Positions 628-59,945 of a stretch of DNA of 64,000 bases are shown piece after piece. The position numbers and the translations under genes were made by a program. The first letter of the stretch is position 1, and the number at the start of each line of letters is the position of its first letter. Under the pieces are notes generated by a model, which was given only the letters and a program-made list of their open reading frames with translations, had not been told where the DNA came from and searched no databases. This DNA comes from Rozella allomycis CSF55 (lineage: Eukaryota > Rozellomycota): NCBI GenBank assembly GCA_000442015.1, contig KE561096.1:1-64000 (forward strand), given 5' to 3'.

Positions 628-3600
628 TCAAATTGTCATTCTTTTTGGGCAGACCACCGAGATAACCTTTGCTGAGAATGATTGAAAGAGGATACCCCAG
701 ATTTGTAGTTGTTTTCTGAACACTTCAAGAATAAAGTAGATTATTCCTATTCCAAAGGAGGCCAAGATGCAATAAATGCTTACATTGCCTGATCCTATTT
801 ATGTTTAGAGTTGTGAAGGAATACCTAGACCTTCTTGAACGCCGGGAGTCCAAATAATGAAGGAACCAATCAAAGCGCCTACTGGAATGAAATGATGATT
901 AAATACCTATAATGAGATGAAATGATTATTAAATACCTATAATGAGATGAAATGATGATTAAATACCTATTATCTCATAACAATTCTTTCTACTTACCTA
1001 TTATCTCACATTACTTGCTCAATTACCTATCTAAGTTTTATCTTTAATAGTTACCTATGTAAATCACCCATTAATAGTTACCTATGAGAATGCCGTATAG
1101 AGAATATTTATTTTTGAATATAGATTTGGTTAAAGGCAACTCGAATCTCTTTTTGCAGAGATAGAGAGTAAACCATTGCCCAATAATAATGGCAGCAAAG
1201 TAAGCCGCCTGACTTTTATTTAAAATTTGTTTTTGTTGGACTGCATTGAATGACTTTCCATTTGACGTTAGAACTGGAGAATCAGAGTTGAAGTATTTAG
1301 AGCCAAGACCAATGAGATTCCAAACATCTAAACCATCTAAATAGAGAGATAAAAGATAAGAAATGAAACAAGAAAGAGTGATGATTCCACCACCGAATAA
1401 ATAAGACCACAAAAGTAATTCATTGTCGACTAGAACTTCACCTGTTTCATTTCTTTTGAACATTTTGTGTAGAAATGATAATTTTTCAAAAGAAGAATTT
1501 GACATTTTCTCTGTGCATAAAACTTTTCTTGGTGGGAACAACATTAAATCTCCATCTGATGGTTCCCAAGCATAACTCAGTGCAGGCAGCAATTCAGTCC
1601 CTACTAAAGTAGGTATTATACTTGTTACCTAGATCTATAAATAATATTAAAACAGATGACAATGGCAAGGGTATTTGAAAGATAACAAAAAATAGAAAAG
1701 AAGCAGCTTCTGGGAATATATGAGTTAGAGTGTATTTGATAGATTTCTTTAGATTTGAAAATATTAATCTTCCTTGGGCAATGCCAACTACAATTGAAGG
1801 GAAATTATCATCTAACAGAATCATTGCTGCAGCTTCTTTAGAAACATCACTTCCTGTCATATTCATACTAATGCCTAAATCAGCCTTTTTCAACGCTGGG
1901 GCATCATTCACTCCATCTCCACTAACACCTACTATATGTCCTTTCAATACTTTTAAATTTATTTACCTTTTGCTTGACACTTCTCTACAATTAATAGTTT
2001 ATGATGTGGAGCTGTTCTTGCAAACACTATTTCCTTCTTTGATAGGATTATATCCCAATCATTGGCACTCAATGCATCTATTTTATCTCCATGAATCACA
2101 ACTGCATCATATTCACTTTCACTTATCAATTGAATTGGTTTCTTCAATCTATTAGCAGCCATTGCAGCTGTATCACCTTTACATTGCAACTAGTCAGAGT
2201 TTACCTTGTAAGAACTATTACTACTCTTTTACCTAGTAAGAGTTACTACTAATCTGTTACCTTGTAAGAGCCATTACTACTACTCTATTACCTTGTTATA
2301 CCCACTACAACTAGTTTANACCCACTACGACTAGTTTACCTTGTTATGCTCCTTAATATTCTTCTACCTTGTTATACCCACTACAACTAGTTTACCTTGT
2401 CAACGCCTTAATACGCTTATACCTGATAATAATCCAATCTTTCTTGCTATGGCTTCAGCTGTCAATGGATGATCACCTGTAACCATCACAACTTGAATCC
2501 CTCATCTCAAACAATCAAATAATCTACCCGCATTTCTACATGACGTAACTGCTTTTCTAACACCCTTCTTTGGTGGATCCATCAACGCTATCAATCCAAT
2601 AAACGTAAAATTATCAATTGGATAATTCGGTGGTTCATTCACAAACTTGAAATTAACTTCATTGTCTATCAAACATTCTGCAAACGCCAACACTCGTTGC
2701 CCTTGACTAGCAAATGTTTCATACGCTACATTAAACTGCTGTGTATGTTCATTGTTCCATTCTTCTATTTTATCATTTATTTTAATGTATTTGCATTTCT
2801 TTATTATTCTCTCGGGTGCTCCCTTTAAATAGACTGTCAGTTCTCCCTTGTCATGTTTTCTTTTGTGCACAGTCATATGCCATTTATTACTACTATTAAA
2901 CGGTATTTCAAACACCTTTATTATAGATAGTAGACTGCTTTACCTATATAGAGTCATTTAAACTTGTTTACCTATCTCAAGTTATTTAAACTTGTTTACC
3001 TTTATCAACACATTTAAACCTGTTTACCTTGGGGTGTTGACTTTGCAACTCTTCTACTTTCACATGACTCACTGCATATCTCATCAATCCAGTCTCCGTT
3101 GCATCTCCAATAATTCTTCTCTTTTCAATTGGACTAGAATCACTCTCATCAAACCTCGCTTTGGAACACAAACAACTAATTTCTGTCAACTCTTTCAAAT
3201 TGGGAACATTCAACTGAACACTCTTGCCATCCTCTTCATGATACTCCAACTCATTCACTTGATGCACACTCAAATTCAAATAACATCCAACAACACTCAT
3301 CTTATTCTGCGTCAACGTCCCTTTCTTTTCAAAATGATTTAAATTACCAGTCTTATCAGACGCCAACAATGTTATCCCTCCCAACGTCTCCACACCCTGC
3401 AAATCTTTAACAAGAACATTCATCTTGGACATCTTCTTGGCTGCTATAGTCAACAACAACGTAACTGTCGCCGGCAATCCCTGCGGCACAAACGCTACCA
3501 GAATGCCAATCGCAAACGCAAAGTTAGTTGAGATCGCTTTGGGATTAGTCGCCATCCCAATTATAAAGAATATTATCGCCAGTGTAATGGAAACACCAGC

Positions 3601-4585
3601 CATCTTCTTCACAAACAAATCAATTTCTCTAGACATCTGAGACGGCCTCTTCTCTTCCTTGCACGTCATTGACGCTATACTCCCCAACACAGTCGCATCT
3701 CCAGTTCTTATCACTACCCCATACCCCTCGCCATTCACAACCAACGTTCCAAAGAACATCAAGTTACTCGCTTCCAAATAATTGTTATTCCCCTTCAACA
3801 AACTTCTCTCTTGTGGCTCTGACTCTCCAGTCAGCGATGAATTATCAACCTTTCTTTCATTAAACATCATCTTACTTTAATCTCATTACACGATATCAAT
3901 CTAATATCAGCTGGCACCTTGTCTCCAATCTTAACAATCACTACATCCCCAGGCACCAGCGTCTCACTCGCAACCTCAACCATCTTCCCCTCCCTAATCA
4001 CCGTCGAATTACTAGGAATCATATTCTACATCAAACCCAACAAAAATCCCCACCAAAAATGACTCCAAAATACTCTGGCTCTTGTACTCTTGGAAAAACT
4101 CTATAAACGCATTCAACAAGGTCACAACAATCAACACAATCCCCAATATAATCTACCCACAACACAAAAATTTCTTACATTCTCCTGCCCTCCAACCAGA
4201 AAATACAACACAACACTCAATATCCCGGCCACCATCAGCAACACATTAAAAAGACCAGTCAGAAAATGCAGAAATCTCTTCAACAATGAATCCTTTTTAG
4301 GTGGCGTCAATGTGTTCCTGCCATACTGGACCAACAGCTCTTTCGCCTTGTCTTCAGTCAGCCCCTATCTCAATCGCAACACTTTTTTACCTAGATTACT
4401 GGCTAAATGATTAATTACTCTTGATCGAGTCACTGATTCTTCATCAACACTCGTTTGGAACCGATCAGCTACCTCTTTGATCGATAACATGTGTTCATCC
4501 TTTTATGCTTGTGTTGGTTAATTACTATGAAGGGCTTCTTGCTGGCACTCGTATCTGTGCGCTCTAATGGGATTGCTGGATCCAT
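628..4585 (-). CDS. Na,K-ATPase-type (P2C) P-type ATPase alpha subunit, about 1,030 aa after splicing
   Basis: A cation-pumping P-type ATPase of the plasma membrane. In order it shows the N-terminal [16 protein letters not shown] region, [12 protein letters not shown] of the actuator domain, the M4 motif [10 protein letters not shown], the phosphorylation motif DKTGT, KGAPERI of the nucleotide domain, [20 protein letters not shown], the M5/M6 segment with FPEAAS and IDLGTELLPA, and M7-M10. These match Na,K/H,K-ATPase alpha subunits better than fungal ENA or Ca pumps. The start is the ATG at 4585; a 26-nt intron follows codon 20. Ten or so single introns (26-30 nt) and four stacks of adjacent introns must be removed; the summed exons give about 1,034 codons, the usual family length. 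The C-terminal 25 residues are uncertain: a neighbouring frame would stop at 594. M4 has Q where animal pumps have E. A beta subunit is not visible nearby. Confidence 0.93.
882..1081 (-). repeat. Intron stack A: seven adjacent GT...AG units
   Basis: On the minus strand, reading from 1081 down to 882, seven consecutive segments each begin GTA and end AG: 27, 28, 29, 31, 30, 30 and 25 nt, with unit borders at 1081/1055, 1054/1027, 1026/998, 997/967, 966/937, 936/907 and 906/882. The 30-nt units at 966-937 and 936-907 differ by one base, and the 25-nt unit matches their first half, so they are recent duplicates. Deleting the whole block joins LYGILI to VGALIGSF of the ATPase in frame. No exon base lies between the units. 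Confidence 0.9.
2177..2422 (-). repeat. Intron stack C: eight, probably nine, adjacent GT...AG units
   Basis: Reading down from 2422, the units are 27, 28, 28, 48, 31, 28, 28 and 28 nt, each starting GTA and ending AG (mostly ACAAG). The 48-nt unit (2339-2292) carries an N at 2319. Its two halves both resemble the unit at 2395-2368, so the N probably hides a lost ATAACAAGG junction and the true count is nine. Removing 2177-2422 joins ARKIGLLS to [11 protein letters not shown], exactly as expected for the P2C family. The units share words such as TAGTAGTAA and GTAGTGGGT, which shows tandem duplication. Confidence 0.9.
2916..3027 (-). repeat. Intron stack B: four adjacent 28-nt GT...AG units
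   Basis: Exactly four 28-nt units (3027-3000, 2999-2972, 2971-2944, 2943-2916) each run from GTAAA to AAAG or ATAG. The first three share the word GTAAACA-GTTTAAAT. Removing all 112 nt joins SQHPK to [12 protein letters not shown], the conserved segment before the KGAPER loop. Each unit alone would be a normal intron for this genome. Confidence 0.93.
4365..4418 (-). repeat. Intron stack D: two adjacent GT...AG units
   Basis: A 28-nt unit (4418-4391) is directly followed by a 26-nt unit (4390-4365), both GTAA...TAG. Removing both joins VTRSR to GLTED, the conserved SRGLT motif of Na,K-ATPases. The two units are not obviously similar to each other, unlike those in the larger stacks. Confidence 0.88.
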
Positions 4586-8767: not shown

Positions 8768-9779
8768 ATGCAAGCGGAAGCACCTTCAAGTATGGAGGTG
8801 TTGTACCAACAGGTTCGTGAACATGTCAAAGAAATGAATGGTATTTGGGGAAACGGATTCGACAAATCCTGGAAAGTGGTTTTACTTCCTGATCGGTCCG
8901 ACCCAAGAAAGGAGCCACATGTAACTCTTGTAAGATGGATTAATTTAGAATATGCCGCCAATATTGAATGTCATCGATCTTATGAGAATGGATGAAGAGG
9001 TTGTTGACAAGTATCTTTCCTTGTATAAAGCCAAAGTACCAGAGCACATTAGTAGACATCAAAAATTGATTTTGCTGGCTAATGAGATTGGAGCCTGTGG
9101 TGCATCCTTTCTTTCTGATGTTAACCCAGTGTATCGCTTGTTTGCAATATCCAAAGAACTCTGTCAAGAAATTGTTGCAGAGCAGATTGATTATTTGCCA
9201 TTCTTGAAGTTATTTGCTCCTGATCGTATAGTCGAAGCTGTTCAGAAAAGACACGATCAAAAAAAGGGTTTATCTTCTAAACCACCCTCCAAACCTCCTT
9301 CCAACTATGGCGGTGACAGCAACAAACAAAGTGAAAAGCCAAGGAGAAAGTTCTTGTTTGAAAACGATCAAGAAGAAAACAGATCGAGGAAATCTAGCCA
9401 GGGATCATATGGAAATAGAGGCCAGGAGTTCGGTCAAGGTGACAGTAACAATGAAGGAAGGAGCTATGGAGGTTATTCAAATGGGAATGATTCAAGATCA
9501 TCAAGAAGAGCTTACAGTGTAGGATCTAAAAATAATGAATCTGCTCAAGGAACGTCGTGGAATAATGAACCTTCTCAAGGAACGTCGTGGAACAATGAAC
9601 CTGCTCAAAGCTCTTCATGGAACAATGAACCTTCTCAAAGTAATTCATGGAACAACGAATCTGCTCAAAGTCAGCCCCAACAAAATCAATCTAATCAACA
9701 AGAAGAATCTAGCGGTTGGGGAAAAGAAGATACGTCTGGTTGGCGCGTGTCTAATGAAGCTGATGATTGGGGTTCCTAA
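8768..9779 (+). CDS. Unknown protein with helical N-terminus and Q/N/S-rich repeat tail
   Basis: Two exons are separated by a 19-nt intron at 8930-8948 (GTAAGA...TTTAG), joining PHVTL to NMPPILNV. The first 165 residues are predicted largely helical (leucine-rich, e.g. YLPFLKLFAPDRIVEAVQKR). After a KPPSKPP linker the protein becomes a disordered Ser/Gly/Asn/Gln-rich tail with five 10-residue repeats of the type NNEPSQGTSW, ending DDWGS. I do not recognise the family. The W-containing low-complexity tail resembles those of RNA-granule or Argonaute-hook proteins, but that is a loose analogy. Confidence 0.75.
9531..9680 (+). repeat. Five coding 30-bp tandem repeats (NNE-S/P-A/P-Q-xxSW)
   Basis: Five in-frame 30-bp units encode NNESAQGTSW, NNEPSQGTSW, NNEPAQSSSW, NNEPSQSNSW and NNESAQSQPQ. 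DNA similarity between units is high, showing recent tandem expansion inside the gene; the last unit is decaying. Each unit places a Trp in a Gly/Ser/Asn context. Confidence 0.9.
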
Positions 9780-33589: not shown

Positions 33590-34697
33590 ATGGATTTTGA
33601 ATTAGAAAACCCTCCTTCAGACGGAATATCTAGCTTAAACTTTTCAAAATATTCAAATAATCTTCTTTTGGCAACCTCTTGGGACTCTGTAATGATTTTA
33701 TACTGATATTATAATCCAGAAGGCAAGAATTTATGATACAAACGCAAATCAATTGATAAAACTTTTTGAACATGAAAGCCCTTTGTTAGATGGGACTTTC
33801 GTATCTGAAAAAGAAATTTCTTTGGGAGGATTAGGGAAACAACTATACATGTATCATTTTTGACACAACGTTTACTTAGATGGAACATAGAACAAGAAGC
33901 AAGACAAATCGTTGCAACACATCATGAACCAATTAAATCAATAGAATACAATGAATTACACAGTAAATGTTGAGTTGCATGATAATAGAATTACTTGTGG
34001 CAGGAAGTTGGGATAGAACAGTGTCTTTGAACGATCAAAGGACCAAAAGTGACACTACATTTGTTAATGTGTCTGAAAGAGTCTATTCTTTAGATACAAT
34101 TGATAACATTCTTGTTGTTGCCTCAGCCAATAGGTTCGTTGATATATTCGATTTGAGAAATTGCCAAACGCCAATGCAAAGGAGAGAATCATCTTTGAAG
34201 CATCAAACCCGCTGTATAAAGCTGTTTCCTAACTCTGAAGGATATGTCATTAGCTCTATTGAAGGAAGGGTCGGTGTTGAGTTTATTGATGAGTCTTCCA
34301 TGAATAAAAAGTATGCTTTCAAATGCCACAGAGAAACTGTTGATGAAGTTGAAGTTGTTCATCCAGTTAACGCAATATGTTTTCATCCAGTGTAAAAAAC
34401 TACATTTTATTTGTAAAAGGTATGGAACGTTTGCCACTGGAGGTAGCGATGGCACAATCAGTGTGTGGGACAGATTGAACAAGAAGAGAATTAAAGCTTG
34501 GCCTAAATATCCTTCGTCCGTTGCGGCACTATCTATCAGTGCCGATGGCTGCATGATGGCCATAGCGTCTTCATACACTTTTGATGAAGGAGAAAAAGAG
34601 TAATCATTTTTCATTCACTTTTACCAGTCATCTGCCTGACAGCATTTTCATAAAGAAATTAACCGATAAAGACGTGATGCCGAAATCAATGCAATAA
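33590..34697 (+). CDS. BUB3: BUB3 spindle-checkpoint WD40 protein
   Basis: Begins [19 protein letters not shown] and continues WD blades [57 protein letters not shown] and [15 protein letters not shown], the characteristic BUB3/Rae1 layout including the CHR and VNAICFHP segment. BUB3 brings BUB1/BUBR1 to phosphorylated MELT repeats at kinetochores. Several introns of about 25-30 nt. The stop at 34697 is 7 bp from the stop of convergent MDM34. Confidence 0.92.
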
Positions 34698-42148: not shown

Positions 42149-45100
42149 ATGCCCGCAGAGCAATGTCAAATCACGACTCGGCAATTCGAGCTAGTAACCA
42201 GTATTTATTAGAAAAACAAGCTTGACTGGCACGTAAAGAATGCGATTCAGTTTTCATTGATACCATTTTTGAAAAAGGATGACCCGTTTTCGCAATACTT
42301 TAATGACATTGACTGTGACAGACTGCAGATGCAGTTGTTTGATGACGAAATTTCTAGTTTGCTTGGAGCGTTTGTAGGAAATGTTCGGCTGACTAGTGTG
42401 ATTAATCAAGGCGATTTGAGTAAGCTGAGGACTAGGTTGAAAGTCAAGTTGTTGATGTCGCAAAAATTGAATTCGTTTAATCGAGAGTGTTTAGAGGTGT
42501 TTTGTGGGAGGTTAGAGTGTTTATTGAATAGGGAGCAGGGCTGGACGGTTGTTGATTTGGTGAAACTGTTTAATGGGGTTATAGAGGGGAAAGTGAAGAA
42601 TAATGCGTATGGAATGGATTTGCAGGCCAAGAGATGGATAGTTTCGTGGCTGATTTCGCAGATTGTCAAGTGTTTGCCCTATTTGCTAAAGGAGGATGAT
42701 GTTGGAGTGAATAGGGAGGCAAGGAAGAGGAAGCAGTCGTTGATTACTAAAGAGTCTATTTATACATGTTTTTTGGATTTGTTTAAAGAGTTTCTCAAGT
42801 CGGGGATGAATTCAGCTTTGATGAAGAGGGAAGATGTGGTGGAGTATTTGGAGTTTTTGTTACAGCAACTTGAACAGGAAGAAGAATCGATTTATTTTGC
42901 ACCGAGGGATGTTTCTGGGGCGGTGTGAGGTGAAGATTATGAATTTGAGATTGCGAGAAACCAAGAGATGGATGCATTGAATGATTTGATTAAAGGAATA
43001 AATCAGCTTCAGAGAATGCAAGTGATGTGGAGGCAGTGAAGCCAAAGAGAATGTCGTTTCTATCTAGAATAGAAGAGATAGACTATGGCAAGCAACTGGA
43101 GGATGTGTCATTTGTGTTAAGAATAAAAGAAGCGCGAAATTTGTACCCGAAAGATGAAAACATAACGAGCGATCCATACTGTACGATAGAGATTGGCGGC
43201 CAATTCTGGCACACGCGTGTAGTGTATAGCGAGTTGAATCCTCGCTGGAACGAAGAGATAGTATTTCCATTTGAGAATTTCACCAAGAATGTTGTGATTA
43301 ATGTGTGGGACAAGGATGATAAAAAGTTTGAGGCGAGTGATCTATTCAAGGCTCGGTATTGGCGGGATGAGAGGGATCAGTTTCTGGGGCGGTGTGAGGT
43401 GAAGATTATGAATTTGATACCCATGTTGATTAGAAGGGGTGAGAATGGGGGGATTGAATTTGCAGCTGTGGAGAGATGGGTGCCTTTGGAGAAGAGATCA
43501 AAGAGGAGCCGTGTTTCTGGGGAGATTAAGATTGAGATTTGTATTGTTTGTGATAAGCTTGTAAGAATGATTTTGTCAAAGAATAGAGTGTGATATTCGA
43601 AAGGGTTAAAATGGGGGTTAGAGTAGAAAGGGAGAGAAGTGATAAAGTTAGAGTTGAACATTTTGATAATCAATGCAATAAAATCTCCAATAAAATCTCA
43701 CATCAGACTTATGGTGAAGTAAACGTACTGCTGACTGTGTTGATTAATAAAATTTTAGAGAGAGAAGATAATTTGCTGGGGGTTGTAGAGATTAGATACA
43801 TTTTGATAGAATTATGTTTGAGATGGAGAATATCGTTTGGATCTTTTAAATTAAAGTAAAAATAAAAATAGATTGAAAAAAAGATTAATTTCAGAGATTG
43901 TGAAGAGAGAAAATTTCATGTTGAATCATGCGAGTCAAGTGTTGTATGAATTGACAACCCTTGAAAGATATTTAAAGAAAGATTCATTTAAAGTAGAGAA
44001 TTTAAACTATTATTTTTGATAGATGAGAAAATTTGAATTTAATTTGGAGATTCTTTGTGAGAATTATTTAAAGTTTGTAAAGAATTACAAGGATTGTTTT
44101 CCATTCAACACGCCAATTGGAGAATTAGACGCGAGTGTTTCTATTTTGCTTTTTATAGAGAAAATCAAAGGGAGGGTGATTAAAGAAGTTGAGGGTAAAA
44201 GGGTTAAAGGAGGGAGAGTGGGGAGAGTGGGGAAGCATCATAAAGAAAACTACATGAATGATACTAATCCTTTTCAAACAACTAATCCCTTTCAATCAAC
44301 TAACTCCTTTCAACCCCCTCAACTTCAACCCCCTCAACTTAAACCTATTCACCTTCCAATTCAAATTGCTTTAAAGGAAGGATTGTTGATGAGATCAATG
44401 AAGTTGAATGAACTTTGCCATCCATTAAAGAAAAATGATTTATTGAAATGTTTAATGTTGACTGAAATTTTGATTAAAGAATTAGATCAAGACATTAATC
44501 TATATTCAAGATCTTTCCCCTTGTAAATAAAATAATAAAATTTAATAAAAGAGAAATAAAAATGATTGAAATTGCAATTCAATCTTATTGGATGATTTTG
44601 TCTCTTGAATATGAAAATTTATTACATTCTTTGGATGAAAAATCTATTTCTCATCTAATCTTTAAAATATTTTTAAAAGCAAATGAATTTCTATCTAAAT
44701 CTAGTGAATTTTATTTGTAAATTATATTATTTGAATTTAAAGAATTTCATTCAATGTTGAAGAATGGTTTAATCCAATTCTAAACAAATGGTTGAATTAT
44801 CTCCAAAATGAATTAAACCGCTGGACCATCAACGCGTGTGAGGAGAGAAAGAAGGGTGAGACAGGGAAGGGAGAGACAGGGAAGGGTGAGAGTAGTAAGG
44901 GTGAGACAGGGAAGGGAGAGACAGGGAAGGGTAAGGGAGAGAGTAGTAAGGGAGAGAGGTGTAAGGGAGAGAGGTGTAAGGGAGAGAGGTGTAAGGGTGA
45001 AGGTATAAATAGAACTAGGTGTTAATTATAATACTGTTACTACCGCTACTCATACTGCTGCTGATACTAATCATACTAAATACTTTAATGAAATAGTTCC

Positions 45101-51949: not shown

Positions 51950-54900
51950 GAGACAAAGAAAGCAATTTACGAATTCGAAATTTTTTTGATCTTCAAATAA
52001 AGAATACTTAAAATTTACAATTTATTTTTAATGTTCAGTTGTTCATGTTAATTAATAATTGATCTCTGTTAATGACTTAATGTTTGAAATCCTACGTATA
52101 ACGTACCTACGTATTAAATAGATTAATAGAATAGAAATAATTGCTGCTTGCTGCCTTCATTGAATATACCTTGAAAAAGTTCGAATCAAATACATGTTCA
52201 CGAGATCAAATATTGCTCTCCTTGGCCCAAAGGGGTTTGGCTTCATCTTATCTACTATATCGAGTGGCTTGGTCGGACCATGACATATAGAAAGTATAGG
52301 TAATCAGTGAAAGGTTCCAAATATATTCTTAAAACATTAATAATCCATATTCAAAATAGCGTTTTCAAGATAATTAAAGAGCAGTGATACGAACTCTTTA
52401 ATTCAGGAATTTTATATGTCTTTTCATTTAAAAGGTTCTCTTTATATCCTCTAAAGCTGTCAAAGAGAGGGTTCGAACCATGTCATTAGCGGGATTTTAC
52501 ATAATCTGACAATAATTCAATAAGTAAATCAAAGAACGAATTTGATTAATTTATCAACTAACTCAAAAACGTTTCTTAATCGAATGATGAATCATGGTTA
52601 TTAGGGCTTCACATAAATTAATAATTTCTATCACGTATTACGAAAGTATACCTTTAAGCTAATGAGTAACCTAAGCATCCTCTGGGCAACAAGCGCACAT
52701 TTAAGTTGCTAATTGGGTTCGTTCCAGTGCATCCAATATAAAGATAAATACCTGTCGAATGTCACTGCCGAATGTCAAGTTTGTGATGCACGTTAAAGAT
52801 CGCAACACATTTTTGCGTGAGTGGTATGACTTTCGTATCTACGTATGGCCTTTCGTCGAAATAAATTCGTATGTTGCTAACAATAACCGTGCCGCAATAC
52901 TTTAGAATTTTATGCCTAATTTGTAGGACCATTCGTTTATTGGCTACGCCATATAATCGACTACAACCGCGCATTTTTATTGTTATCATTAAATGGTGTT
53001 TTAGTCCATATTGTCTGTACTGTACTATAATAAGGACATTGGCATCACATGAATGTATCTAAATCAATACCTGCACGAATAGCCACAACAACAATCAGAT
53101 ACGAAATATCATTATGTTTATATTTCCTTTAGATATGGCGTTGTGCCAATTATTATAAAAGATTATTTAAATATCATGCCTAACGTCGAGACCTTAAAAA
53201 TATTGGACAAAATTACCGTTGGTTATGTCGACGCGGCGTGCCGTCGCCTGTCTCAGCTCATGAAAGCTATAAATAGCGGTTTTGCAATGCGTAGAATTAA
53301 CTAACGTGTTGTCTCCGGGACCGGACATTGTGATGACATTTTGTACCGGATACAAACAGACCCATTCTCCCGTGATTAAAAGTCTTACATGTTTTTTGTT
53401 TGAATGACAATGACCCAAACAAGTTGGCAGCCTGTTTGTATTCACGCGATATAATTTCACATGTTCATACATTTATATGGCAATGTAAGGAAGCGAACGT
53501 CGCGCCGGCGACAGCACTTCACAATTTGTTTTAGTTTCGCCGACTTCGGGCCTCCGCAAACAACTTAAATCCAAATAATAGATACACTCTATGCAGGACA
53601 TTTGGCACAACCTTTGTCTCCACTTTCTTGTATATCCCATATTAACATGGCAATTAATTTTGTATGCTCGAAGTTAACGACATATTTTTCTTAAGCCCGA
53701 ACATAAGTACTGCTAAAACCATAATTCATGTGAACCAACTAACATAATTCATATGATGCCAACGAAGGACTTGTTGGCATAGACACACGAACCATTGAAG
53801 GCCTCGTATGCATCCATACGACCGCGTGTATAGCAAAGCAAAACTAAAGGGGTATATGGACTGCCCACGTGTGCACGACTACCATACATGGCCCACAATC
53901 TAACAAAAAAACAATGCCAACCACCCACATGAGTTATGTCAGGGACCGGTCTAGTTATGTATATAAATATGTTGGCCATAGCCGCCCGAGGCTTTATATA
54001 CGTCTTAAATGCATACAGACTGCAAAAAGCACCATATGCATGCCCCGTCATCATTTCGACGACAACGCACGATAACGGTTCGGTATGTAATGTCCTCATG
54101 CGGGCGAAAACAAATGGTTATTTGTCGCCGCATCTATATGGCGGCGTAAACGCAAGAAATGTTAGAATAATTATGCCGCTTTGAACAACTTTATTCAGTT
54201 GTATTCTGGGAACACTATTAGAATGGAAATAGAATCTTTTTTAAACTACAGTCACCACAAACTTTGCCGGGACATTCCAAACGACATATTTAGTGTTCAA
54301 TATTACTTGAATGCATGTGTGCTTTTTAATTTTAATCCTTGCACATAGTCAAGTATTGCCAGTCTCAAGGCTACAATCCGCAGACAAACCTCAATTTCAA
54401 CGGTCGTGTATCGGTCATTAGTAATGTGTTGGTTTAATGTACGGCCGAATACAATAAATATTCAATATAGCAATCACTCGTTGGCTCACCAACAGCCCGA
54501 CATGCGACATGGACATTTGTGAAGCTATGGAAACTGATGATATGATGCTTTGATGTTCGGCATAACTTGTTTCCATATTTCATGTATACATTCATTTGTG
54601 TTGCGTATATCCATAATATCCACGTGCCAGTGAAATTTGCGTCCACACATGATGACGCCTTTGAACAATCAATCACGCAGTTTAAGATTTGGAGTCGTTT
54701 CCCGTTGCAAGTCAATAACAAAAAGTCTACACGCATCTACACATAGTTAATCACTCACAATTGGATTTATAGAACGTATTCTCAAGCATGATTTTGCTGA
54801 ATTAAAGTCACACTTAAAACTGCGTTCATCGGCAACTAAGTTTATTAGTTAGTCTTTGTCTCGTTATGCAAATTCTAGTTAGGATTAGATATTTAGTGTT

Positions 54901-56747: not shown

Positions 56748-58684
56748 CCATAATGACCATTATGGATCCATAATTATAATTCTAAAACTAATCCTTTAAT
56801 GCAAAACCAGATTTTATTTGTCGTTTTTCTTGTGGCGTACGATCTGACTGACTTCTTTAAAATTCCACATTGACCGATTTAGTTTCAAAAACATGAGCAT
56901 TTCCAAATTACGTGGAGTCATTGCATTACCCAAATTCAACTTGCATTGGCTGAATAATCGTTCACATTGATTGGATGTTGGAGGAATAAATGTCAAAATC
57001 TTCATATTCGCTCTCATCGCGTTTCCGTTTTTTGCTTGCTGAAGTTTTGCGGCGGCAAACCCCAACTGCTTTTCCTCTTCAGGAGTGAGTTGAATTAAAG
57101 CACGACTAAATGGTACCAAAGTCTCTTTTTCTTCCATCGTGAGCATCTCTTCCTTTTTCCAATCACTTTCACTAGGGCATTCTCAAATGCAACATTGTGA
57201 ACAATCTCCGCGTCAGTAGCCAAATAACCCCGCGTAGAAGGAAATTCTTCAATGACACTGTCAAAGAGAATTCTCACTTCTTCCATTGTCACATCACCTT
57301 GTAACGCGTTGGTGACAGAGTCCAATTTTGCCATTACTTCTTTCATTTCTTGAATAACAATTTGCTTTTTTGGAGAAGGCAAACAATCAAAAAGATCTCG
57401 ATCCATTTCATCAATAAATTCTTTTAGCTGAATATATACCCTGGCCATTGTATATTTTTCATTCCATCTTGTATCATTGTCAATAACAGGACTTAGGTTT
57501 GTCTTGTGTCTCAATTTTCCCCAATGCTTCAAACGTTTCAGTCTTTTCTCAAGTAATTTAGAAGAAAAACTAATAAATAAACTCCTAAGAGCAGTGAAAA
57601 ACTTTTTTATTTTATTCAAGGGTCGCATTTATACCCCGACCCTGGCATCTCACTTCTTTCCCCAAATTTCCTTCACCTTTTGCGGCTGTGTTATACCAAT
57701 AACATCGATATTTTTGCTAGATCTCTTGACTACCTCACTAAATAATAGGCCGGAAGTGAGAGCAGCCGGATTGCTAACTCTTCCACTTCCAACATTATTA
57801 ACTCCTTTAACTTAACCATAATTCCAGAATATCTTTGGTCCAGCAGTTGTTGGACTGCAAGGTTGAAGCGGTGGGAGACACACCCCAATGAAGGTACGTT
57901 GAAGGCGTTGGCTATTGATTTCATGAGATCACAATTTACCCCAACGTCACAATTTACCCCAACGATAAATTGCACAAAGTCACGCCCTTTCCCATAGATT
58001 TCAAGAGTGGCCTCCAAAAATGCAAAATGACTTTCCGTATCCAACGCTTCTTCATTCAGTAAGGGAGCCAAGGCCAAAAGCGTCAATGGTAAACGCGGTG
58101 TCACGGAAAAAGACCCACATAGTGATTTCCCGAATCTGTCCACTGATCGAACATTAATCCTCCTTTGTCAGGCAATTCTTTACTAATTTTTTCTTCCACA
58201 GACGCTACCAATAAATGTGCATATTGCACTTTTGATCTTTTCTTCCACAGACGCTACCAATAAATGTGCATATTGCAGAAAAGTATCAGAGTCCATTTTC
58301 TTCAATCGTGAATACTGTAGGAACAAAGGGTCTTCGCAAGAGGTATATGGTAGCGTACTTTTTCCAGTCAAAAGATCCAACCATCCAAACACATTTCTTT
58401 CTTTTTCAGTCGAAGATGGTATTTTTATTTCTTCTTTCCAATTCGGATGTTCTTTTTCAATGTGCTGCACAAGATTGGCGTACCTCTTGTTCTTCACTTG
58501 TTTTCGCTCAGATAAACAAAATCTACACTTCCATCGGTCTTCACCCATTGATTCAAAGTAAAACTTCGCTTTTTCACTGTTTGAGTAAGAGAGATTCATT
58601 GACAACAGTTTTTTTCACACCCAACCCTTGTATTATGTAACCGTCATGGGTTGGTCCCAGTCCATTATGGTATGGCCATAATGG
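56748..58684 (-). mobile_element. Degenerate hAT-type DNA transposon
   Basis: Minus-strand remnants of a transposase lie between two clusters of palindromic words: CCATAATGACCATTATGG at 56748-56765 and CCATTATGGTATGGCCATAATGG split over 58662-58684. These look like the (sub)terminal inverted repeats of the element. Exact ends and target-site duplication were not established. Confidence 0.6.
56814..58599 (-). pseudogene. Broken hAT transposase with BED zinc finger
   Basis: From the 5' end: a BED finger (WKCRFCLSERKQ...HIEKEHPNW), a region with SLGCVSHRFNLAVQQLL, a segment with DNDTRWNEKYTMARVY typical of hAT catalytic cores, and the dimerisation domain PPTSNQCERLFSQCKLNLG. The pieces sit in different frames separated by stops, so no single intact protein is encoded. 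Two small tandem duplications (58202-58278 and 57937-57972) disturb it further. Confidence 0.85.
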
Positions 58685-58793
58685 AATCATTATTTTTTTC
58701 GGAACTTCATACGTCGATTATTTGATTTTTGAAAGACAAGAAGCTTAAAAATTACACTTTGCATTTTTATTTTTTTAATAATTGCTCAAGGGG

Positions 58794-59945
58794 TTAACAA
58801 TCACCAAATAATTCGTCTACGTACCAAAGCAAAGGATCGTCAGCGAGAATAGGATACAGAAACTCTGAAGATACAAAATTATCTTTTTCCAGCAGAAAAA
58901 TGTGATTTGTGTTACAATAATGGTCCTTTAGAGTATCTGAATTTTTAAACTTTGTATTGCAAGTAATGCACGATAATTCACTAGTTTTCCTTCTGATATA
59001 ATTGATTAGCTTTATGCGTTCATAAACATCCAAACCTAGTCTGTAAATTTAAGTTTTAATACCTTTTGCAATCACAAATTCTTTAATGTCAAATTTAAAT
59101 TCATCTTTCACTTCCATGATTGCATCAAATGGAGTGTCAAAGTATCTTTGTCCAAAAAGACTCAAAGTTTGAGCTTCCTTTGAATTATCCCACCAATCTT
59201 CCCAAGTTTCCTTTTCACTTAAAATCTCTTGTTCATCATTCAAGTTAATCTCTTTTTTAAGCTCTACATAGTTTCTAAAATAGAATTTATCATAAATTAA
59301 ATTCTTGCTTGAAATTTTAAAATGTTTTTTCTTTCTCAGGTGATTTCTAAGAACAGTAAAACTTGGAAAGGTTTTCTCACAGTAAATACACTTCAAACTA
59401 ATCTCAATTTCATGTCACAATATTTACTCGTCTAACTTCTTTTTTAGAAGACTCATAAAGTCATCAAAGAGAACTATATTGTCAGGAGCACCGATGTTGA
59501 AGGAGTGTTCAATATACATATGCCTCACATATGATCTTTTATTAGTAAACACCTTCTTACAAAAAAGACATTGTCGGGCTTTAGTTTCAATACGTTCTTC
59601 TTCTTGTCTGTGTAGCAGTTTATCTAGTTTCTCTTTGTGTAGTTCATTTCTCAAAATTAAATCATTGCCAGCAGGCCCAGCACCTAGAATTGTGATTTCT
59701 CCTTCAAAACTATCGATTCCTTTGCACTTGTAATAATCTATATATTCTTGAAGAAAAGGTAAAACATCTTCTACATTGTTCACCGCTATTCTATGAATAT
59801 CAAAAAGATGTTTTAGAAAGCCCCAACTTGAATCAAAGCTTGTGTTGTTTTGACAAATTTCAAAGGTACAAATATATTTATCAGAGAAACTTGTCATTGA
59901 AGAGGGTGCCAAATCATAATAAAATGCGGCATTCTCTGAACTCAT
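58794..59945 (-). CDS. ZNF277: ZNF277-like C2H2 zinc-finger protein
   Basis: Fingers and signature phrases follow ZNF277: CLFCKKVFTNKRSYVRHMYI, HSFNIGAPDNIVLFDDFM, KCIYCEKTFPSFTVLRNHLR, KKHFKISSKNLIYDKFYFRN, ETWEDWWDN, KLINYIRRKTSELSCITCN and the closing HIFLLEKDNF...LADDPLLWY. Two introns (30 and about 27 nt) lie at LDD/LKCIYC and AKG/LDVYER. In animals ZNF277 binds ribosomal protein uS5 and Polycomb factors; its role in fungi is unknown. Confidence 0.88.

Follow-up and report, generated by a model that had tools for sequence, protein, structure and literature searches.

The window studied here, the first 64,000 nucleotides of contig KE561096.1 from Rozella allomycis CSF55, contains on its minus strand a gene encoding a P-type ATPase of the Na,K-ATPase type, whose introns are the main subject of this analysis. 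The gene is interrupted at 13 positions. Nine of them hold a single intron of 26-30 nt, and the other four hold stacks of 2, 4, 8 or 9, and 7 segments, each beginning with GT, ending with AG and directly abutting the next one (Table 1). These segments had been reported in the original prediction, and both direct reading of the sequence and a script parse recovered them at all four positions. Since a single N within the third stack probably marks a contig join, the number of units in this stack is uncertain.

Table 1. Features of the ATPase gene, in window coordinates.
Feature	Position	Strand	Remarks
Na,K-ATPase-type P-type ATPase gene, ATG to stop	628..4585	-	13 intron positions; read directly and script-parsed
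Single intron, 26 nt	4500..4525	-	script-parsed
2-intron stack	4365..4418	-	4418-4391, 4390-4365 (28+26 nt); retention gives an in-frame stop (by eye)
Single intron, 26 nt	4153..4178	-	script-parsed
Single intron, 28 nt	4026..4053	-	script-parsed
Single intron, 26 nt	3850..3875	-	script-parsed
Single intron, 27 nt	3321..3347	-	interrupts DKTG/TLT phosphorylation motif; kept as coding in ROZALSC1DRAFT_16731
4-intron stack	2916..3027	-	3027-3000, 2999-2972, 2971-2944, 2943-2916 (28 nt each)
Single intron, 27 nt	2501..2527	-	script-parsed
8- or 9-intron stack	2177..2422	-	27, 28, 28, 48 (with N), 31, 28, 28, 28 nt; 30-nt identical stretch flanks the N on both sides
Single N within the 8- or 9-intron stack	2319	.	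probable contig join
Single intron, 26 nt	1941..1966	-	script-parsed
Single intron, 28 nt	1601..1628	-	script-parsed
7-intron stack	882..1081	-	27, 28, 29, 31, 30, 30, 25 nt; last unit 28 nt if it ends at 879
Single intron, 30 nt	795..824	-	script-parsed

Once whole stacks are removed, the spliced product is a complete protein of 1,033 aa (1,032 aa with the alternative last acceptor), in agreement with the length of about 1,030 aa which had been anticipated. Its residues 20-1007 align to solved Na,K-ATPase alpha subunits (713.6 bits), five P-type ATPase Pfam domains are present, and retention of the 28-nt units, as read from the sequence, shifts the frame. Its best match in a homologue search, which was made with this protein only, is ROZALSC1DRAFT_16731, a separately deposited gene model from the same strain (608 aa, 99% identity over 57% of the query). 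This model, which is annotation and not RNA evidence, skips the 2- and 4-unit stacks exactly, enters the first unit of the next stack and keeps a 27-nt single intron, in which the frame is open by chance. Whole-stack removal would, however, restore the protein just as well if each stack were one ordinary long intron containing a minisatellite of intron-like period, spliced only from its first GT to its last AG with the inner AG|GT junctions silent, and an annotation that skips two stacks whole is equally compatible with this alternative. For reasons which come from the units themselves and are given below, it is regarded as unlikely.

Chains of GTA...AG units on the minus strand of the window comprise 7, 5, 4 and 4 units, the chain of five including one false, exon-derived leading unit and the N dividing the 8- or 9-unit stack into two chains. 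Among 50 first-order Markov sequences as long as the window (one strand each, units of 20-34 nt), a three-unit chain occurred once and longer chains never. The plus strand has one three-unit chain (34392-34473), which the gene model did not parse as a stack. This gene model was produced by our own gene finder, trained on the window without any stack rule and with splice-site tables retrained on its own calls, ATPase units included. It predicted 169 introns in 26 genes, with 16 abutting intron pairs, all in the ATPase gene (which the output fuses with its neighbor) and none in the other 25. The probability that four stacks would fall at random within the 13 of 153 window intron positions that belong to this gene is 3 in 100,000. 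Similarly, ten control stretches of 5 kb, taken at round coordinates from six large contigs, each of which carries a stack region elsewhere, gave 26 gene pieces and 93 introns without an abutting pair (534 bases being N). Abutting pairs were thus absent from all 51 gene predictions made outside the ATPase gene in the window and the control stretches.

As had been proposed along with the original prediction, contiguous units were sought throughout the genome, using the pattern AGGTA(17-27)AGGTA(17-27)AGGTA on the 9.97-Mb assembly of 213 contigs, in which the window belongs to contig C152 and starts at the contig end. The search gave 182 matches, whereas the reversed pattern gave 12 and 62; four sub-patterns together account for all 182 (45+59+34+44), while a single sub-pattern provides 55 of the 62 control matches. 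Together with the Markov sequences, this count rules out a chance origin of the stacks. Among the 181 matches examined, window included (C139:30765 was left out), 180 lie inside predicted genes on the same strand, the sole exception being C158:77177, and 173 lie wholly within parsed stacks. They group into 48 regions, in which stacks reach 12 units, as on C139. At these loci, 47 gene pieces have stacks at 96 of 245 intron positions, and 21 of the 47 have two or more. Window and loci together contain 101 stacks with 364 units (2 to 12 each) and 296 single introns, these counts taking in some doubles or composites where N joins lay two versions end to end (C65, C101, C87, C134 and C27) and undercounting some stacks.

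Because the gene model favors coding sequence around GT...AG segments, exons were scanned separately against Pfam, 20 in total, covering both flanks of 10 stacks of three or more units plus one lone exon. At 6 of the 10 stacks, the flanking exons continue one and the same domain, five with no more than 3 profile positions missing in between and one, AAA_7, with 9 missing. These are DNA_pol_B (profile 119-366, then 5 units, then 368-453), Rpb1_3 of the RNA polymerase III largest subunit (1-28, 5 units, 29-157), RNA_pol of a mitochondrial-type RNA polymerase (25-107, 4 units, 110-141), the dynein C-terminal region Dynein_C (2-171, 3 units, 174-270), a Clathrin/VPS repeat (1-34, 3 units, 38-129, the first part being below the curated cut-off) and AAA_7 of dynein (3-44, 4 units, 54-169). 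At two further stacks the exons pass into the next domain (Mtr4 barrel to DSHCT, and Rpb1_3 to Rpb1_4), and at the remaining two, one flanking exon had no Pfam match (L037:3350-3499 and L032:789-1172).

With 28.8 +- 1.5 nt (units of at most 36 nt) compared with 27.65 +- 1.5 nt for the single introns of the window, stack units are within the normal range of the species. GT and AG ends are present in 100% of units by construction of the parse, and 97-99% of units start with GTA. The view that they are full introns with zero-length exons between them, proposed for the ATPase gene, is supported, and the same arrangement is found in about 48 regions genome-wide. Of the 364 units, only 4 are longer than 36 nt. 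An N lies within three of these, and the remaining one (C87, 80 nt) consists, by eye, of a 31-nt unit running into exon-like sequence close to an N join. Similarly, everything scanned contains only five introns of 40-70 nt outside the parsed stacks (47, 65, 56, 53 and 55 nt, two with N), against 26 two-unit stacks, so that decayed doubles are rare. When compared position by position outside the end signals, neighboring units agree at only about 48-64%. The persistence of inner GT and AG and of unit length in such diverged sequences, together with the rarity of decayed doubles, argues against one long intron with silent inner junctions, and it fits selection acting on each unit, a conclusion which depends on our own gene model. 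Beyond the ends, the motif TTRA, considered as a possible branch point, occurs in 60% of units (36% in shuffled sequences) and in 40% of single introns (30%); no sharp branch-point motif was found. The assembly contains one match each to U1 and U2 RNA genes (C5:99865-100023 and C48:25402-25592, respectively), with conventional pairing regions. The U1 match has the usual donor-pairing end and scores 69 bits, just below the gathering score of 69.5.

After trimming of the end signals, mean identity is 66% for adjacent units, 57% for other pairs of the same stack, 54% for sampled between-gene pairs and 50% for single introns. The likeness of units within a stack, which had been noted in the ATPase gene, is only partial; it is strong in about a third of adjacent pairs (35% exceed 70% identity). 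Both halves are alike in 13.6% of 250 adjacent pairs, the 5' half only in 16.4% and the 3' half only in 17.6%, compared with 0%, 0.9% and 1.5%, respectively, of 4,846 between-gene pairs; similarity of one half only thus concerns 34% of adjacent pairs versus 2.4% between genes. While tandem duplication at the splice borders is supported, these half-alike neighbors point to repeated unequal exchange with breakpoints inside units, and not to clean whole-intron copying alone. Some stacks show an ABAB order of units (e.g., C118), and others contain runs of identical or nearly identical neighbors (C134:41635-41723, C158:169196-169344 and C195:4768-4855), which look like very recent duplications.

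An alternative source of the units would be insertion from elsewhere, by reverse-spliced introns or introner-like elements which enter AG|GT sites and recreate AG|GT each time, and so pile up. It would be consistent with the many neighboring units that have no detectable likeness, and with the AG|G(T) flanks of stack sites and a last unit which is the odd one out (both described below). However, the share of pairs above 90% identity was 0.000 among 4,909 sampled between-gene unit pairs, no between-gene pair exceeded 0.86 among those listed at 80% or more, and near-identical runs and ABAB order lie within single stacks. In addition, the highest similarities between stacks of one gene adjoin N joins with overlapping ends. 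Insertion is therefore considered improbable, and transposition of the introner type was rejected, as no near-identical units were found across genes in the compared regions. Transfer of units between stacks of one gene (C101, C65, C87, C27 and C134) was also considered and rejected, its signal adjoining N joins with matching ends, where two versions of a locus probably lie side by side.

Such joins are informative about stack turnover. Matching sequence was found on both sides of 22 of the 29 single-N joins examined. Nine of the matches are longer than 90 nt, and seven of these come within 6 bases of the N from either side, as expected of overlapping contig ends, the exceptions being the two in C101. 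In the C65 overlap, the two copies differ at 3 of 323 exon positions and 0 of 27 positions of a single intron, compared with 21 of 110 in the stack, where two middle units are of another type. In a topoisomerase II gene on C101 (N at 153719), differences amount to 1 of 219 in exons and 1 of 29 in a single intron, whereas the stack has a gap of 28 nt, i.e., one unit length, as well as 19 substitutions over 141 aligned columns, a number which includes some from a misaligned end. Stacks thus changed against exons that are 99% identical. The C134 and C27 overlaps show a like trend by eye, their masks mixing exon and stack, and for C87 the similarity is 81.8% over 192 columns. The two versions would be alleles or strain variants, tandem duplicates being the alternative; if they are alleles, the 28-nt gap in C101 and the unit replacement in C65 represent the copy-number variation between locus versions that characterizes minisatellites.

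The stack regions lie at a median of 7.4 kb from a contig end and, of the 35 whose contig measures at least 40 kb, 18 have an end within 10 kb, where 8.1 would be expected. Variable stacks may be what breaks the assembly at these places. This excess and the matching sequence around N joins are also what an assembly artefact would produce. That the stacks are such artefacts, or decaying pseudogenes, is nevertheless highly improbable, as their units are mostly diverged and not identical copies, conserved domains continue across them, and in the Rozella protein deposited separately, ATPase exons are joined across two of them.

The exons around the stacks have their own signature. It was analyzed in stacks of at least 4 units, which are findable through their inner junctions alone, so that their flanks were not chosen by the search pattern. 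AG ends the upstream exon in 39 of 47 such stacks, and in 32 of 36 after removal of the 11 followed by GTA, which may be unread units. For single introns the corresponding counts are 26 of 137 in the window, 50 of 159 at the loci and 20 of 84 in the control stretches. Likewise, GT starts the downstream exon in 14 of the 36 stacks versus 19 of 137 window single introns (Fisher test against the latter, p = 8e-15 for upstream AG and p = 0.0015 for downstream GT). The 16 stacks without the search pattern concur, with an upstream AG in 12. Such flanks would be expected if AG|G(T) repeats mediate exact duplication, but also if strong donors are needed. The stacks are also polarized. TAG ends 79% of 263 non-last units and 38% of 71 last units (30 stacks followed by GTA being dropped), compared with 48-50% of single introns. 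In stacks of at least 4 units, similarity drops at the last adjacent pair (0.61, n = 34, versus 0.71, n = 97, for the other pairs; p = 0.001), and the first pair does not differ significantly from the rest (0.72 versus 0.67, p = 0.07). The 3'-most unit may be the original intron, growth having occurred on its 5' side.

Collectively, these data favor, with a probability of about 0.72, the interpretation of each stack as a tandem array of functional, complete introns of the U2 type, about 28 nt long and separated by zero-length exons, which changes by minisatellite-like events in register with the splice borders. Arrays would arise and change via slippage or unequal exchange in this register. 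Duplication would be easiest where an exon ends with AG and the next one begins with G or GT, the resulting AG|G(T) motif at both intron ends allowing one intron length to be copied exactly, and units losing GT, AG or the right length would be weeded out. The ordinary spliceosome would then remove the units one by one, i.e., recursively, although a single step from the first GT to the last AG is the other route conceivable from the sequence. As every unit runs from GT to AG and abuts the next, excision between any GT and an AG further on shortens the stack but keeps it intact, and the same mRNA is obtained in any order of removal; duplication of a whole intron should consequently be near neutral.

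Several observations weigh against this interpretation. Many adjacent units are too diverged for their common descent to be proven, and stack genes are few and clustered. An upstream AG makes a stronger donor, through the pairing end of U1, and is thus no proof of the duplication mechanism, while the distinct last units are not predicted by simple symmetric slippage. In the other aligned C101 overlap (N at 151139), exons are identical and the stack part differs by small gaps only. Finally, the gene model contains 23 introns longer than 36 nt outside stacks; should any of these be genuine, this organism is able to splice long introns, as reading each stack as one long intron supposes. Two of them were viewed; one joins the ATPase gene to the next gene and the other cuts out part of an open C2-domain frame. 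The remaining ones are probably, for the most part, gene-model errors.

In its broader form, the array interpretation makes introns the repeat unit of a hypervariable minisatellite, with exact duplication at AG|G(T) junctions, as many as 12 functional introns per array in conserved genes, an mRNA independent of the order of removal and a turnover far above that of exons, a proposal which we consider probable on balance. If true, introns would be gained here by a new route that is still active, and the arrays would provide a natural system in which to test the stepwise removal of introns. The stacks make it testable how introns multiply and how the spliceosome picks among many equal neighboring sites, since one genome offers many replicate stack loci, apparently with variant versions. 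The genes concerned include those with topoisomerase II, RNA polymerase III, DNA polymerase B and Mtr4 domains, where errors should be costly. Stacks may also account for gene models and assemblies which fail at such sites.

Apart from the ATPase gene, the window contains on its minus strand a SWEET-type sugar efflux transporter (PF03083, 51251-52021), in an intracellular parasite, and open frames which by eye resemble a hAT-type transposase (56814-59945), two pieces of which gave no Pfam match and whose gene model has doubtful long introns. The plus strand carries an RRG7/Mrr-type restriction endonuclease-like domain (PF10356 and PF04471, 60458-61078) and, near the contig end and single Ns, a fragment with a C-x2-C-x4-H-x4-C zinc knuckle by eye (125-475, no Pfam match), possibly retroelement debris. 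Tandem repeats of 30-bp and 15-bp units lie within predicted genes (9534-9670 and 44851-45008, respectively), and about 2.9 kb (51950-54865) is without a predicted gene.

Elements of this architecture have been described in other organisms. Tiny introns of about 25-28 nt, as in Rozella, are found in dicyemids, for which the accessible parts of the reports describe no intron stacks (PMC2222250, PMC6543705, PMC6736024), and Paramecium is also named for its tiny introns (PMC2222250). An origin of the window from a dicyemid, which introns of 26-28 nt had suggested, was rejected in view of the 99% match of the ATPase to a Rozella allomycis protein. In the literature searched, from which most subscription journals are absent, no description of arrays of complete introns at one position was found among the matches listed, and term searches within PMC5701793, PMC10716661 and PMC9860276 yielded nothing on intron arrays. 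In Cryptococcus, DNA duplication, by slippage, unequal crossing over or gene conversion, has been suggested as a source of gained introns (PMC2395259). The latter lie, according to the sections available, in a repetitive region of the gene, whereas in Rozella the intron itself is the repeat, without an exon between copies. From what is accessible on stwintrons of fungi (including PMC12403724), these likewise combine several U2 introns at one position and are removed by consecutive reactions; however, they are nested, a signal of one intron being interrupted by another, while Rozella units stand side by side with their signals whole.

The human UBC gene, as far as the available text goes, contains a tandem array of dual-specific AGGT sites, each in principle a donor or an acceptor, with a proposed origin by repeat expansion (PMC10809524). 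Both features recall the Rozella stacks, but the UBC repeats are coding monomers giving variable products, whereas Rozella units are all non-coding and their product should be constant. Finally, long introns of Drosophila undergo recursive splicing at ratchet points, where AG and GT are juxtaposed around a zero-length exon and stepwise removal rebuilds the donor (PMC8605326). In the parts of this source available, ratchet points divide very long introns and depend on a cryptic downstream exon, while Rozella units measure about 28 nt, stand up to 12 in a row and resemble tandem copies; the ATPase stacks span 54-246 nt, and their abutting units leave no room for a recursive-splicing exon. Juxtaposed AG|GT with stepwise removal, AGGT arrays with repeat-driven intron creation and nested twin introns are thus already known from the accessible literature. 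The juxtaposition of AG and GT inside an intron is also what is observed in the Rozella stacks, and such a stack is topologically equivalent to an intron containing several ratchet points.

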